Assembly: GCF_000014005.1 (NCBI RefSeq) | Contig: NC_008009.1 | Location: forward strand, 124,001 to 188,000 | Direction of reading: 5' to 3' | Length of the DNA stretch: 64,000 bases | Source: Candidatus Koribacter versatilis Ellin345 | GTDB taxonomy: Bacteria > Acidobacteriota > Terriglobia > Terriglobales > Acidobacteriaceae | Shown: in pieces, positions 37,506 through 41,216 of the stretch | How positions within the stretch are numbered: position 1 is the first letter of the stretch | How the letters are laid out: every line of letters begins with the position of its first letter | Made by a program: the position numbers and the translations under genes | Notes under the pieces: generated by a model | Databases searched by the model: none | What the model was told of the DNA's origin: nothing | What the model saw: only the letters and a program-made list of their open reading frames with translations

Positions 37506-39062
37506 ATGGCAAAGCTCTTCAACAAAATCCTTATCGCCAACCGCGGCGAGATTGCGGTCCGCGTTATTCGCGCCTGTCGCGAGATGGGGATCGAGTCGGT
37601 CGTCGTCTATTCCGACGCGGATCGCCGCGCCTTGCATGTTCGGAAGGCCGACTACGCGTATCACATTGGGCCGTCTGCGGCGAGCGAGTCGTATCTGCGC
37701 ATTGACAAGATTCTCGATGTAGCGAAGAAGAGCGGGGCGGAGGCGATCCATCCCGGCTACGGATTCCTTTCGGAAAATGCACGGTTCGCGCGGGCGTGCG
37801 TCGCCGCCGGAGTGAAGTTCATTGGCCCGACAGGTGACGCGATGGATGCCATGGGATCGAAGACGAAAGCACGCCAGGCAATGGCCAAGGCGAACGTTCC
37901 CATGGTGCCTGGCAACGCCGAGGGCCTGAAGAGCGCAGAAGAGGCTGAAGTCCTCGCTGAGCAAATTGGATATCCGGTCATGCTCAAGGCTGCAGCGGGT
38001 GGTGGTGGCAAGGGCATGCGGATGGTGAAGTCGCGTGGGGAACTGCGCTCGGCGCTGGAAGCCGCGAGCAGTGAGGCGCAGCGCTCCTTCGGCGACAGCG
38101 AAGTCTATCTTGAGAAATTCATCGTCAATCCGCGGCATATCGAGATGCAGATCTTCGCGGATGAGCATGGCAACACGGTATGGCTTGGCGAGCGCGAATG
38201 CTCAGTACAGCGCCGCCATCAGAAAGTCCTCGAAGAATCGCCATCACCGATCGTAGATCCCGATATGCGGCGGCGAATGGGAGAGGTCGCGGTCCGCGTG
38301 GCACAGGTGGCGAATTACACCAACGCGGGTACCGTCGAGTTCCTGGTTGATGAGCAAAAGAACTTCTACTTCCTCGAAATGAACACGCGGCTGCAAGTCG
38401 AACATCCGGTGACGGAACTGGTGACCGGCATGGATCTTGTCCATCTGCAGATTCGCGTGGCCTCCGGCGAACTTCTACCATTCAAGCAGGAAGATCTCTT
38501 GCTCCGCGGGCATGCGATCGAGTGCCGCGTTTACGCGGAAGATCCGGATAACCAGTTCTTCCCGTCTCCCGGGCGGATCACTCGACTGATTTCACCCTCC
38601 GGTCCGGGGATTCGTCGCGATAGCGGAATGTACGAAGGCTGGACCGTACCGCTCGACTACGATCCGTTGCTCGCTAAGCTAATTGCGTACGGCAGCGATC
38701 GCGAACAATGCATTCATCGTTTGCAGCGCGCTTTGTACGAGTATTTCGTCGGCGGAATTAAGACGAATATTCCACTATTCCGACGCATTCTGAGCGACGC
38801 AGATTTTCAAGCCGGAAAGCTGCACACCGGCTTCCTGGACCGGTTGTTATCGGAGCCGCATTTGCCGGCGCCGGAACATGAGGAACGCACGCGCATGGCT
38901 GCCATCGCTGCTGCGATCTTTGCCAGCACCGAGCCGCAAGTGACACTGGGTAAACCGTTCGATGGAGTGACGTACGCAGCGGCGGCGAAGCCAGTCAACG
39001 GTGCCGCGAATGGCGAGAAGTCGGAATGGAAATTCCAGGGACGCACGGAGGCGCTTCGCTAA
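37506..39062 (+). CDS. accC: Biotin carboxylase subunit of an acyl-CoA carboxylase
   Basis: The protein has 518 residues. ATP-grasp enzyme that carboxylates carrier-bound biotin with ATP and bicarbonate. Residues 1-445 carry the N-domain (LFNKILIANRGEIAVRV), the glycine-rich loop AAAGGGGKGMRM (about 161-172) and the catalytic EMNTRLQVEHPVTE (about 288-301). A 70-residue C-terminal extension is poorly conserved and ends a little past the usual AccC length (about 450), so a role in propionyl- or other acyl-CoA carboxylase is as likely as in acetyl-CoA carboxylase. The next gene overlaps by one base. No carboxyltransferase gene is in the window. Confidence 0.9.
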   Translation: MAKLFNKILIANRGEIAVRVIRACREMGIESVVVYSDADRRALHVRKADYAYHIGPSAASESYLRIDKILDVAKKSGAEAIHPGYGFLSENARFARACVAAGVKFIGPTGDAMDAMGSKTKARQAMAKANVPMVPGNAEGLKSAEEAEVLAEQIGYPVMLKAAAGGGGKGMRMVKSRGELRSALEAASSEAQRSFGDSEVYLEKFIVNPRHIEMQIFADEHGNTVWLGERECSVQRRHQKVLEESPSPIVDPDMRRRMGEVAVRVAQVANYTNAGTVEFLVDEQKNFYFLEMNTRLQVEHPVTELVTGMDLVHLQIRVASGELLPFKQEDLLLRGHAIECRVYAEDPDNQFFPSPGRITRLISPSGPGIRRDSGMYEGWTVPLDYDPLLAKLIAYGSDREQCIHRLQRALYEYFVGGIKTNIPLFRRILSDADFQAGKLHTGFLDRLLSEPHLPAPEHEERTRMAAIAAAIFASTEPQVTLGKPFDGVTYAAAAKPVNGAANGEKSEWKFQGRTEALR

Positions 39063-39565
39063 TGGTTTACGACATCGTAATTTCGGAGAAGACCTACCGC
39101 GTCGAAATCGCCCGCGCCGGAAGCCGTTGGAGTGGCAAGATCGATGGCCAGCCATTCGATGTTGACGCTGTCCCGACCGCCCGCGACATTCTTTCCATCA
39201 TCGAAGGCGAGGGTAAGGCCTACGAGGTGAAACGAGAACGCGCGCTGAACGGCGAACTCCACATGCTGGTCGGAAGCTCCCGTTACTCCTGTGAGATCAA
39301 CGATCCTCGTTCGCTTCGGACACGCCGTGCCGCCGCGGGCAGTACCGAGGGCCCGCAGAAGATCGTCGCGCCCATGCCGGGTAAAGTCGTGCGTATTCTT
39401 GTGCCTCAAGGCGGAGAAGTGGAAGTGGGGAAGGGCGTCGTTGTCGTTGAAGCGATGAAGATGCAAAACGAGCTGAAATCGCCAAAGAGCGGGAAAGTAC
39501 AGAAGGTCCTGGTGAGCGAAGGCGCGACGGTGAATGCGGGGGACACGCTGGCGGTGATCGAGTAG
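39062..39565 (+). CDS. accB: Biotin carboxyl carrier protein
   Basis: The protein has 167 residues. The first 90 form an unusual N-terminal region (MVYDIVISEKTYRVEIARAG), as in the acyl-CoA carboxylase alpha-chain BT-type linker, followed by the biotinyl domain with PMPGKVVRI, the biotin lysine Lys133 in EAMKMQNEL, and LVSEGATVNAGDTLAVIE at the end. The start at 39062 overlaps the accC stop by one base (TAATG). BirA at 19985 would biotinylate it. Confidence 0.92.
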   Translation: MVYDIVISEKTYRVEIARAGSRWSGKIDGQPFDVDAVPTARDILSIIEGEGKAYEVKRERALNGELHMLVGSSRYSCEINDPRSLRTRRAAAGSTEGPQKIVAPMPGKVVRILVPQGGEVEVGKGVVVVEAMKMQNELKSPKSGKVQKVLVSEGATVNAGDTLAVIE

Positions 39566-39568
39566 GGT

Positions 39569-39665
39569 ATTCGCTAAAGCGTATAAATTAAATCAATACG
39601 ATTATGCGTATATATTGACTTTATTCGCTAAGACGTATAAAGTCCATCAATACGGTTAAGCGTAT
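39569..39665. promoter_or_regulatory. Four-operator array of the hipBA promoter, period exactly 27 bp
   Basis: Four 16-bp dyads of the form AT(T/A)CG-N6-CGTAT start at 39569, 39596, 39623 and 39650, each exactly 27 bases after the one before. Odd-numbered sites begin ATTCG, even-numbered ATACG; the whole is a tandem 54-bp duplication. The last overlaps the hipB start codon. In E. coli HipB binds four operators with a different sequence (TATCC-N8-GGATA), so this is an equivalent array with its own recognition sequence. Confidence 0.75.
39615..39641 (+). promoter_or_regulatory. Probable hipBA promoter inside the operator array
   Basis: TTGACT (39615-39620) and TATAAA (39636-39641) are 15 bases apart, a little short of the optimum. 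The two boxes lie between and within operators 2 and 3, so a bound HipB would block polymerase. No SD is seen before the hipB ATG. Confidence 0.5.
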
Positions 39666-39915
39666 GGATGAAATCGCTCGTACCTCCAAACAACTCGGTG
39701 CCCTCCTCCGGAAGACCCGCAAGAGCCTCGGTCTCACCCAAGCCGACCTGGCGTCTCGAATCGACGTTCGGCAAGCGACCATTTCCGATTTAGAGCATGG
39801 AGAACGCGAGGCAAGGCTCGGCACGGTGCTCCAAGTGCTCGCAGCGTTGGATCTGGAACTGGTAGTCCGCACTCGCACGCGCGGCGATGCCAAGCATCTA
39901 GAGGACCTCTTCTGA
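39664..39915 (+). CDS. hipB: HipB-type antitoxin, XRE helix-turn-helix
   Basis: The protein has 83 residues. The XRE HTH spans about 12-65, with LGLTQADLASRIDVRQATISDLEHGEREARL as the central unit. HipB neutralises the HipA kinase and represses its own operon. Its C-terminal tail is short (RTRTRGDAKHLEDLF). The ATG lies inside the fourth operator. The stop TGA overlaps the hipA ATG by one base. Confidence 0.92.
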   Translation: MDEIARTSKQLGALLRKTRKSLGLTQADLASRIDVRQATISDLEHGEREARLGTVLQVLAALDLELVVRTRTRGDAKHLEDLF

Positions 39916-41216
39916 TGCCCCGTCACGCTACCTATGCCCCTCTAAACGTTTTCATCAACTCGCGACGGGTCGGAGTTCTCCGTCGCGAGTCCTCAGGCGC
40001 CGTCGAATTTCGCTACAGCGACGAGTGGCTCGCGTGGGCGCACGCATTTCCGATCTCACTATCTCTGCCTATGCGTCCGGAGAAATACGTTGGCGCTCCG
40101 GTTCTCGCAGTCCTGGAAAATCTACTGCCGGACAATGAAGCGATCCTGCGACGAGTCGCTGAGCGGGTGCACGCGAACGGAACCGACGCTTATAACTTGC
40201 TTTCAGCAATCGGACGCGACTGCGTCGGGGCACTGCAGTTTCGACCGGAAGACACACAACCTGGCCCTGCAGGAGTCGTTGATGGAGAGGAACTCGAGGG
40301 TCACGGAATTGAGCAACTACTCGCAAACCTAACGCGCGCGCCTCTAGGCCTTACGACCGACGATGATTTCAGGATCTCTATCGCCGGAGCCCAAGAAAAG
40401 ACTGCTCTTCTCCGCTGGAATGATCGATGGTGGAAACCGCTTGGCGCCACGGCGACCACACATATTTTCAAGCGGCCGATAGGAATGGCGCACAATATTG
40501 ACCTCAGCGATAGCGTGGAGAATGAGTATCTCTGTCTCCGACTCACGAAGGCATTGGGAATTCCTGTTGCGAATGCGGAAATCGAGCAGTTTGGAAAACA
40601 GAAGGCATTGGTGATTGAGCGCTTCGATCGTCTTTGGACGAGCGACAAGAGGTTGTTGCGCATTCCGCAAGAAGACTGCTGCCAGGCATTCTCGATGCCA
40701 CCAACCAAAAAATACGAAGCCGAGGGCGGTCCCGGAGCCGTGAAAATTCTTACCCTCCTCAATGCTAGTGACACGCCTACCGACGACCAGAAGATGTTCT
40801 TGAAAGCACTGATAACTTTTTGGCTACTCGGAGCGATCGACGGCCATGCAAAGAATTTCAGTATTCGAATCGCCGAAGGCGGACGTTTTCAATTGTCTCC
40901 CCTTTACGACATCGTCTCCGGCCAGCCGGCTGTGGCAGCGGGCAGCATCCGCCACAACCAATTCAAACTAGCGATGGCGGTTGGGAAGAATCGGCAGTAC
41001 GTGGTGAACTCAATCGCACCCCGGCACTTCGCCGAAACGGCTGCACAGGCGGGCGTCGGGCGAGTGGTCGTGGAGGAAGCGATGCAGGAGTTACATTCGG
41101 CGGCGGTGAAGAATGTGAGCCACGTTTTCAAAGACCTTCCTTCCAAGTTTCCAATGAAAATGGCAGAAGCGGTCCAGAAAGGCTTCGACCGGCGCCTCAA
41201 GATGCTGAGTGCATGA
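39915..41216 (+). CDS. hipA: HipA-type serine/threonine kinase toxin
   Basis: The protein has 433 residues, the normal HipA length. The N-terminal domain (about 1-105) shows LLPDNEAILRRVAER. The ATP-binding loop is SIAGAQEKTALL (155-166), the catalytic core is AIDGHAKNFSI with Asp309, His311 and Asn314, and the metal-binding Asp332 is in LYDIVSGQ; 309 and 332 are the same numbers as in E. coli HipA. Ser155 would be the autophosphorylation site equivalent of Ser150. In E. coli HipA phosphorylates GltX. It overlaps hipB by one base. I see no sign of decay. Confidence 0.93.
   Translation: MPRHATYAPLNVFINSRRVGVLRRESSGAVEFRYSDEWLAWAHAFPISLSLPMRPEKYVGAPVLAVLENLLPDNEAILRRVAERVHANGTDAYNLLSAIGRDCVGALQFRPEDTQPGPAGVVDGEELEGHGIEQLLANLTRAPLGLTTDDDFRISIAGAQEKTALLRWNDRWWKPLGATATTHIFKRPIGMAHNIDLSDSVENEYLCLRLTKALGIPVANAEIEQFGKQKALVIERFDRLWTSDKRLLRIPQEDCCQAFSMPPTKKYEAEGGPGAVKILTLLNASDTPTDDQKMFLKALITFWLLGAIDGHAKNFSIRIAEGGRFQLSPLYDIVSGQPAVAAGSIRHNQFKLAMAVGKNRQYVVNSIAPRHFAETAAQAGVGRVVVEEAMQELHSAAVKNVSHVFKDLPSKFPMKMAEAVQKGFDRRLKMLSA

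Follow-up and report, generated by a model that had tools for sequence, protein, structure and literature searches.

The hipBA operon of Candidatus Koribacter versatilis Ellin345 is preceded by four dyad sites that recur every 27 base pairs (bp). Most of the related operons examined share this spacing, a finding which suggests that the spacing mirrors how the repressing protein complex is shaped. The operon lies in the 64,000-nucleotide stretch analysed here, called the window (contig NC_008009.1, positions 124,001 to 188,000; coordinates below are those of the window). HipA is a founding persistence toxin, and the way in which operator-bound HipBA complexes hold the kinase inactive is still a matter of discussion. 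A pitch (the distance from one site to the next) that is exact to the base pair across distant bacteria, while the recognition sequences change, points to physical contact between neighbouring complexes. Operator arrays of hipBA are already known from Escherichia coli, Caulobacter, and Legionella, and the window operon is a new member of these known systems.

The operator array in the window

On the + strand, the pattern ATWCG-N6-CGTAT matched exactly at 39569, 39596, 39623, and 39650, so the four dyads and the 27-bp period described in an earlier sequence-only reading were found in full. In the whole genome (5.65 Mb), the exact 16-bp pattern occurred at six distinct places, four of them the hipBA array and two elsewhere, and the backward control pattern gave three matches. 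Allowing two mismatches brought the window to chance level (72 matches versus 69.5 expected); the evidence for the array therefore rests on the exact matches and their spacing. None of 300 dinucleotide shuffles attained the dyad-pair score of the 190-bp upstream region (p = 0.0033, the minimum obtainable), in which the best lag was 54 (score 28) and lag 27 scored 26. Chance as the source of the array was set aside on the exact genome matches, the shuffle scans, and the in-gene control given below. In our reading, an 18-bp unit describes the symmetry better, with TATACGCTTAAGCGTATA as its idealised form. The features of the locus are as follows.

39568–39585, no strand: operator 1, 18-bp dyad TATTCGCTAAAGCGTATA (16-bp core 39569–39584)
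39595–39612, no strand: operator 2, 18-bp dyad AATACGATTATGCGTATA (core 39596–39611)
39622–39639, no strand: operator 3, 18-bp dyad TATTCGCTAAGACGTATA (core 39623–39638), within the promoter spacer
39649–39666, no strand: operator 4, 18-bp dyad AATACGGTTAAGCGTATG (core 39650–39665), through the hipB start codon
39615–39620, + strand: −35-like hexamer TTGACT, located between operators 2 and 3 in their linker (consensus match only)
39638–39643, + strand: −10-like hexamer TAAAGT, following a spacer of 17 bp and overlapping operator 3 at its right end (consensus match only)
39664–39915, + strand: hipB, 83 amino acid residues, helix-turn-helix (HTH) antitoxin and presumed repressor
39915–41216, + strand: hipA, 433 amino acid residues, HipA kinase toxin, overlapping hipB by one base

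A scan for sigma-70-like promoters found one candidate, with 0.3 expected. The sequence-only reading had placed the promoter between sites 2 and 3; this holds for the −35-like hexamer, whereas the −10-like hexamer runs across the end of site 3. The promoter gap is the middle gap of the array, with one operator downstream, on the start codon. As had also been stated, the last site covers the hipB ATG (39664–39666), the 16-bp core taking in two of its bases and the 18-bp site all three.

Sites 1 and 3 were 89% identical and sites 2 and 4 were 83% identical, the remaining pairs showing 61–72%, and a 44-bp block recurred with 84% identity at 54 bp and 66% at 27 bp. The alternation of ATTCG and ATACG, from which a 54-bp tandem duplication had been proposed, is real in the window, but it is not how the arrays of the family are built: in 34 four-site arrays, mean site identity was 0.755 (sites 1 and 3), 0.73 (sites 2 and 4), and 0.717–0.734 (adjacent sites). 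A 54-bp tandem duplication, visible in the window and absent from the mean of these 34 arrays, was rejected as the origin of the array.

For a helix of 10.5 bp per turn, adjacent sites are 2.57 turns apart, on nearly opposite faces, and alternate sites are 5.14 turns apart, nearly on one face; this arithmetic agrees with the proposal that successive dimers would be placed on different faces. That proposal invoked DNA wrapping or looping. Contact between neighbouring HipBA complexes, for which E. coli offers a precedent, would be at least as likely.

Two bases lie between operator 1 and the stop codon that ends the preceding gene (39026–39565), whose C-terminal end we take to be a biotin-attachment domain.

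Operator pitch in related hipBA operons

Relatives were collected with a profile (alignment) query; a scan of contigs with a single HipA sequence had found none. The close set comprised the 80 best-scoring loci, out of at least 581 found, together with the window, the congener, and 12 plasmid loci picked among the 40 listed (of 1852 records), giving 94 upstream stretches and, after removal of two duplicates (L044 and L047), 92 promoters. By record titles, these were mostly of alphaproteobacterial origin, and Acidobacteria, Nitrospirota, Nitrospinae, Verrucomicrobia, and others were also represented. The only same-genus genome with a match (G001, locus L003) encodes a HipA 66% identical to that of the window and carries four dyads at 1151, 1178, 1205, and 1232, again 27 bp apart; its sites were 61–78% identical to those of the window and its linkers 22, 67, and 33%.

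The spacing was recovered by three measures. Mean self-identity of the 92 promoters at lag 27 was 0.428, compared with 0.257 in mononucleotide shuffles (largest of 200, 0.268), and lags 26 and 28 were at background (0.241 and 0.234, respectively); the best lag was 27 in 63 promoters and 54 in 19. A symmetric 18-bp matrix, seeded on the sites of the window with no spacing imposed, located 234 sites in 72 of the 92 promoters, and adjacent spacings (n = 162) were 27 bp in 146 cases, 26 in seven, 54 in five, and 24, 29, 53, and 81 in one each. A matrix-free dyad-pair scan (300 dinucleotide shuffles per promoter, significance at p ≤ 0.01) was significant for 63 of 91 close promoters, with a best lag of 26–27 or 53–54 in 62 and of 46 in one; among the other 28, 27 or 54 was still the best or tied lag in 24. 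Dyad-pair scores of at least 25 were obtained for 123 of 172 promoters and for 8 of 172 in-operon stretches starting 500 bp past the hipB start. The sequence-only reading had named a lack of conservation in close relatives as a possible refutation; the dyads, which look like hipBA operators as it had claimed, are conserved both in the congener and in the family. The linkers were only 33–50% identical between promoters (31% expected).

The recognition helix of HipB was classified in 91 of the 92 promoters, an earlier classification having left 56 rows unclassified. Where a Trp precedes the Q-x-T of the helix, the half-sites were of the ATGA type in 19 of 20 rows, the sole exception (L120) having no significant array; such half-sites occurred in none of the 71 rows without the Trp. 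The other helix classes agreed, with TATCC accompanying KQ and TAGGCG accompanying RQR. Three acidobacterial loci (L045, L046, and L066) had 27-bp arrays with a different recognition sequence, TAGGCG...GCGCCTA or like, and three rows carrying TAGGCG sites had RQR in the recognition helix. As judged from sequence comparison, the half-sites change with the HipB recognition helix and the pitch stays.

For a wider sample, 398 Pseudomonadota genomes were drawn evenly; HipA was found at E ≤ 1e-40 at 76 places in 70 genomes. The promoters used were split by search rank into 39 with a HipA nearer those of the window and E. coli (three of which, L142, L146, and L148, repeat close-set genomes) and 24 with a more distant HipA (L192–L215). 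In the first group, 33 of 39 were significant, 32 at lag 26–28 or 53–56 and one at 37 (L185, E. coli group), and all six others had a best or tied lag in the 26–28 class or its double. In the second group, 17 of 24 were significant, all 17 at 49–51 bp, as were five of the seven others by best lag. These 49–51 bp promoters carry two palindromes upstream of hipB, often TTCCCG-AT-CGGGAA-like. A missed middle site (2 × 25 bp) was rejected, lag 25 being at background there (0.254).

Pitch followed the HipA tree, none of 200 shuffles being as clustered. The tree was built by a quick method; of 174 rows it used 98, with the close relatives thinned to every sixth, and the long branches of L026, L019, L017, L140, L212, and L198 mean that its distant rows are placed unsurely. 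A 63-row set (99 in the Shimodaira–Hasegawa-like approximate likelihood ratio test, SH-aLRT) contained the window and E. coli, and 50 of its 51 labelled rows were in the 26–28 class or its double. Outside this set, 19 of 24 labelled rows were at 49–52 and two were at other values; next to it stood L140 (27), L191 (26), and L006 (26/28/54), L191 being counted among the 39 by search rank and lying just outside the set on the tree. Six of the nine 28-bp rows fell within the E. coli group, and in 11 E. coli-like promoters mean self-identity was 0.397 at lag 28 and 0.312 at lag 27. Two HipAs from 49–51 bp promoters matched the Shewanella oneidensis structure (4PU3/4PU5) best, one clearly (142 versus 113 bits) and one narrowly (184 versus 170 bits).

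Among 10 distant plasmid loci, hipB was missing at one, and the other nine were significant at 27 (three), 54 (two), 28 (two), 56, and 39. The 28 distant acidobacterial HipA places (L004–L031) had no recognised hipB beside 19; four of the nine used were significant, at lags 52, 26/28/54, 50, and 40.

Two kinds of variant arrays were also observed. L061, L065, L189, and L191 have a pitch of 26 rather than 27 (L065 also 24) and would lend themselves naturally to testing what determines the pitch. Upstream of hipB in L074, L075, and L105, the sites are asymmetric, pairing unlike half-sites (such as TATGCG with TATCGG), and their orientation seems to alternate along the 27-bp array.

Probable autorepression and possible causes of the pitch

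The array very probably consists of autorepression operators of hipBA that embed its promoter. Sites, pitch, conservation, promoter-like overlap, half-site and helix co-variation, and kinase residues were observed here; binding, repression, Lon, and growth arrest are carried over from E. coli and Caulobacter. By this analogy, HipB dimers, alone and with HipA, would sit on the four 18-bp dyads, covering the promoter. Operator 3 would fill the spacer, with the −10-like hexamer overlapping its right end, and operator 4 would cover the expected transcription start and the ATG, so that HipB and HipBA on the array would exclude RNA polymerase. Loss of HipB, which in E. coli and Caulobacter occurs through Lon, would leave the sites empty and induce the operon, and the freed HipA kinase would cause growth arrest.

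The closest precedent is E. coli K-12, whose hipBA operon has four dyads upstream of hipB, TATCC-N8-GGATA, with the same 18-bp geometry as the window. Its HipB is related to that of the window, and the two HipAs fall in one clade. The K-12 sites lie at −134, −106, −67, and −39, giving spacings of 28, 39, and 28 bp compared with 27-27-27 in the window; the gap of 39 bp exceeds 28 by 11 bp, or roughly one turn. The half-sites, TATCC/GGATA in K-12 and of the TATAC/GTATA type in the window (where they read TATTC or AATAC), differ by one base. The sequence-only reading was right that the E. coli operators differ in sequence and are unevenly spaced, but it overstated the contrast, the geometry being the same. 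The window has operators of the E. coli type, in that 18-bp dyads precede hipB with a 26–28 bp pitch, but lacks the half-sites and the 28-39-28 spacing of K-12 itself. Passages of PMC3376134 and PMC3920265 describe cooperative binding of E. coli HipB to four operators, an operator bend of about 70 degrees, and HipA as co-repressor; passages of PMC7029023 and PMC6581861 describe dimerisation of HipA in the promoter complex, and a passage of PMC10627512 the close packing of two HipA around HipB.

The exact pitch would be kept by selection if complexes on neighbouring sites touch, most likely via HipA, as in the E. coli promoter complex. We lean towards such contact as its cause, with modest confidence. 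Contact would impose the pitch regardless of linker sequence, recognition sequence, or the presence of a promoter, and on this ground the pitch probably reflects the packing of neighbouring HipBA complexes.

Several observations weigh against the autorepression reading or against the contact proposed within it. The close set consists of the best-scoring relatives and is no random sample, and in the even draw hipB was recognised beside 63 of the 76 places, the other 13 being dropped. The matrix found no site in 20 of the 92 promoters, many of which bear ATGA half-sites instead, and one site only in five; individually non-significant promoters amounted to 28 of 91 in the close set and to 6 of 39 and 7 of 24 in the draw. 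The in-gene control is coding DNA and differs in composition. The link between helix and half-site reduces to two independent changes on the tree, both in the expected direction (sign test, p = 0.5). In the window HipA, E. coli P86 and D88, which we take to be persister-mutation sites near the HipA–HipA contact, are replaced by A92 and N94; the contact, if present, is therefore not conserved residue by residue. These two residues were also considered as deciding between 27 and 28 bp and were rejected: among the 129 sequences that do not belong to the 28-bp group, P still occurred in 24 and D in 21, giving no clean rule.

The 27-bp pitch could instead be a by-product of promoter architecture, a 17-bp spacer forcing 27 bp in a unit that was then duplicated, with functionless spacing elsewhere. 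The consensus of the 57 promoters with a 27-bp spacing between their last two sites, TATACGCaAacGCGTATA-TTGAcatTT-TATACGCaaTaGCGTATA, fits this: the −35 abuts one operator at offset 18, and the −10, hence at offset 41, starts within the final four bases of the operator that follows. By our sum, the spacer between the two hexamers is 17 bp. The geometry of −35 and −10 alone would therefore also give 27 bp in the promoter gap, which counts against contact as the cause. Of 67 promoters, 48 had TTGA or TTGC in a total of 54 gaps (the last gap in 39 cases, the next to last in 11, and the third from last in four), at offset 18 in 41 of the 54, and the 54-bp near-repeat in the window points the same way. 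Gaps without a −35-like motif, however, were nearly as strict (95 of 108 exactly 27 bp) as those with it (51 of 54), and promoter geometry as the sole cause was rejected on this basis. Linkers within one array averaged 33–36% identity where 31% is expected from composition, so the copies are old, yet their length has not drifted; moreover, the E. coli-like group prefers 28 bp and more distant HipAs 49–51. We consider this explanation unlikely. Equally unlikely, in our judgement, is that HipB alone sets the pitch, its dimers bending the DNA so that bent sites cooperate at 27 bp without HipA–HipA contact. The cooperative binding and the bend of about 70 degrees described in the passages cited above favour it, as does the joint change of HipB recognition and half-site, but half-sites and helix change without a change in pitch. 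Pitch follows the HipA tree, although HipB is inherited together with HipA, so that the fit, which would otherwise speak for HipA, does not separate the two causes.

Mere inheritance of the spacing from an ancestral array, with no selection on it, would agree with the homology of HipA throughout the family and with the constant place of the array. Neutral linkers should vary in length, however, and here linkers that share 33–50% identity between promoters accompany 146 of 162 spacings of exactly 27 bp and changing recognition sequences; drifting lengths were few among relatives (16 of 162 spacings differed, six of them being 54 or 81). This makes unselected inheritance very improbable. Even less credible is that the dyads bind another regulator or are iteron-like repeats unrelated to HipB: the array precedes hipB on chromosomes and plasmids alike, in genomic surroundings that are unrelated, has the geometry of the E. 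coli hipBA operators, and has half-sites that co-vary with the HipB recognition helix.

Other known systems extend the comparison of pitch. The Caulobacter crescentus hipBA1 and hipBA2 promoters have three operator sites each according to passages of PMC8545095, compared with four in the window, and passages of PMC7029023 liken C. crescentus hipBA to the E. coli higher-order complex; in our analysis, Caulobacter sp. AP07 (L121) had four sites at 27 bp, as in the window. In Legionella pneumophila hipBST, HipB binds three evenly spaced 18-nucleotide sites with 53-bp gaps (about 71 bp from site to site by our sum), and the toxin is split into HipS and HipT (passages of PMC10653801); the HipA of the window is one chain of 433 residues. 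S. oneidensis-type HipBA is, like that of the window, a HipB–HipA module; the 49–51 bp pitch set beside it here is that of the drawn promoters. Passages of PMC10627512, which give S. oneidensis as the organism of 4PU3, describe its complex as markedly different from that of E. coli, which is closely packed. They liken HipBST, whose two toxin halves stand apart on a HipB dimer, to the S. oneidensis complex. A literature search over passages, with Schumacher 2015 and Wen 2014 outside its reach, found no stated 27-bp or clade-specific pitch and no contrast of 27 with 49–51 bp.

The structure matches of the 49–51 bp HipAs, taken with this packing contrast, lead us to infer that pitch may read shape. 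Operator pitch would then be a conserved ruler of HipBA quaternary structure, 26–28 bp for the E. coli type, 49–51 for the S. oneidensis type, and about 71, from print, for Legionella HipBST, a tentative reading that we find almost as likely to hold as to fail. If it holds, the shape of a repressor complex would be predictable from DNA alone, since recognition sequences change and pitch does not, and pitch would serve as a DNA signature by which hipBA operons could be assigned to structural types. By our sums at 10.5 bp per turn, pitches of 26, 27, 28, 39, 49–51, and 71 all fall 0.48–0.86 turn past a whole number; neighbouring complexes would then never share one face.

The HipB and HipA proteins

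The operon has the layout of a type II module, a small HTH gene directly before hipA, with HTH_3 above its cut-off in HipB and with Couple_hipA and HipA_C, both above their gathering scores, in a single HipA chain. The closest solved structure to the window HipA was E. coli HipA (E = 4.9e-97), with 4PU5/4PU3 at E = 1.1e-24. The kinase residues at E. coli positions S150, K181, D237, D309, N314, and D332 are all kept, as is G22, the hipA7 site. HipB scored below the cut-offs of both NCBIfam models, TIGR03070 (68.3 bits, cut-off 71.65) and NF007271 (40.4 bits, cut-off 79); a profile of 14 relatives matched the E. coli HipB chains best (E about 6e-14). HipB ends in LEDLF, with F83 and E80 invariant in the 14 relatives. 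E. coli HipB has a C-terminal Trp, said in passages of PMC10627512, among others, to reach a pocket on HipA.

The source genome has a second, distant HipA-like gene (L002, G000:C1:5417772-5418683; 33% identity over residues 56–377), and the whole-genome pattern search found no match to the exact operator pattern near it. In two genomes of the family of the window, HipA-like matches with in-frame stops (L010 and L011) are probably decayed copies.
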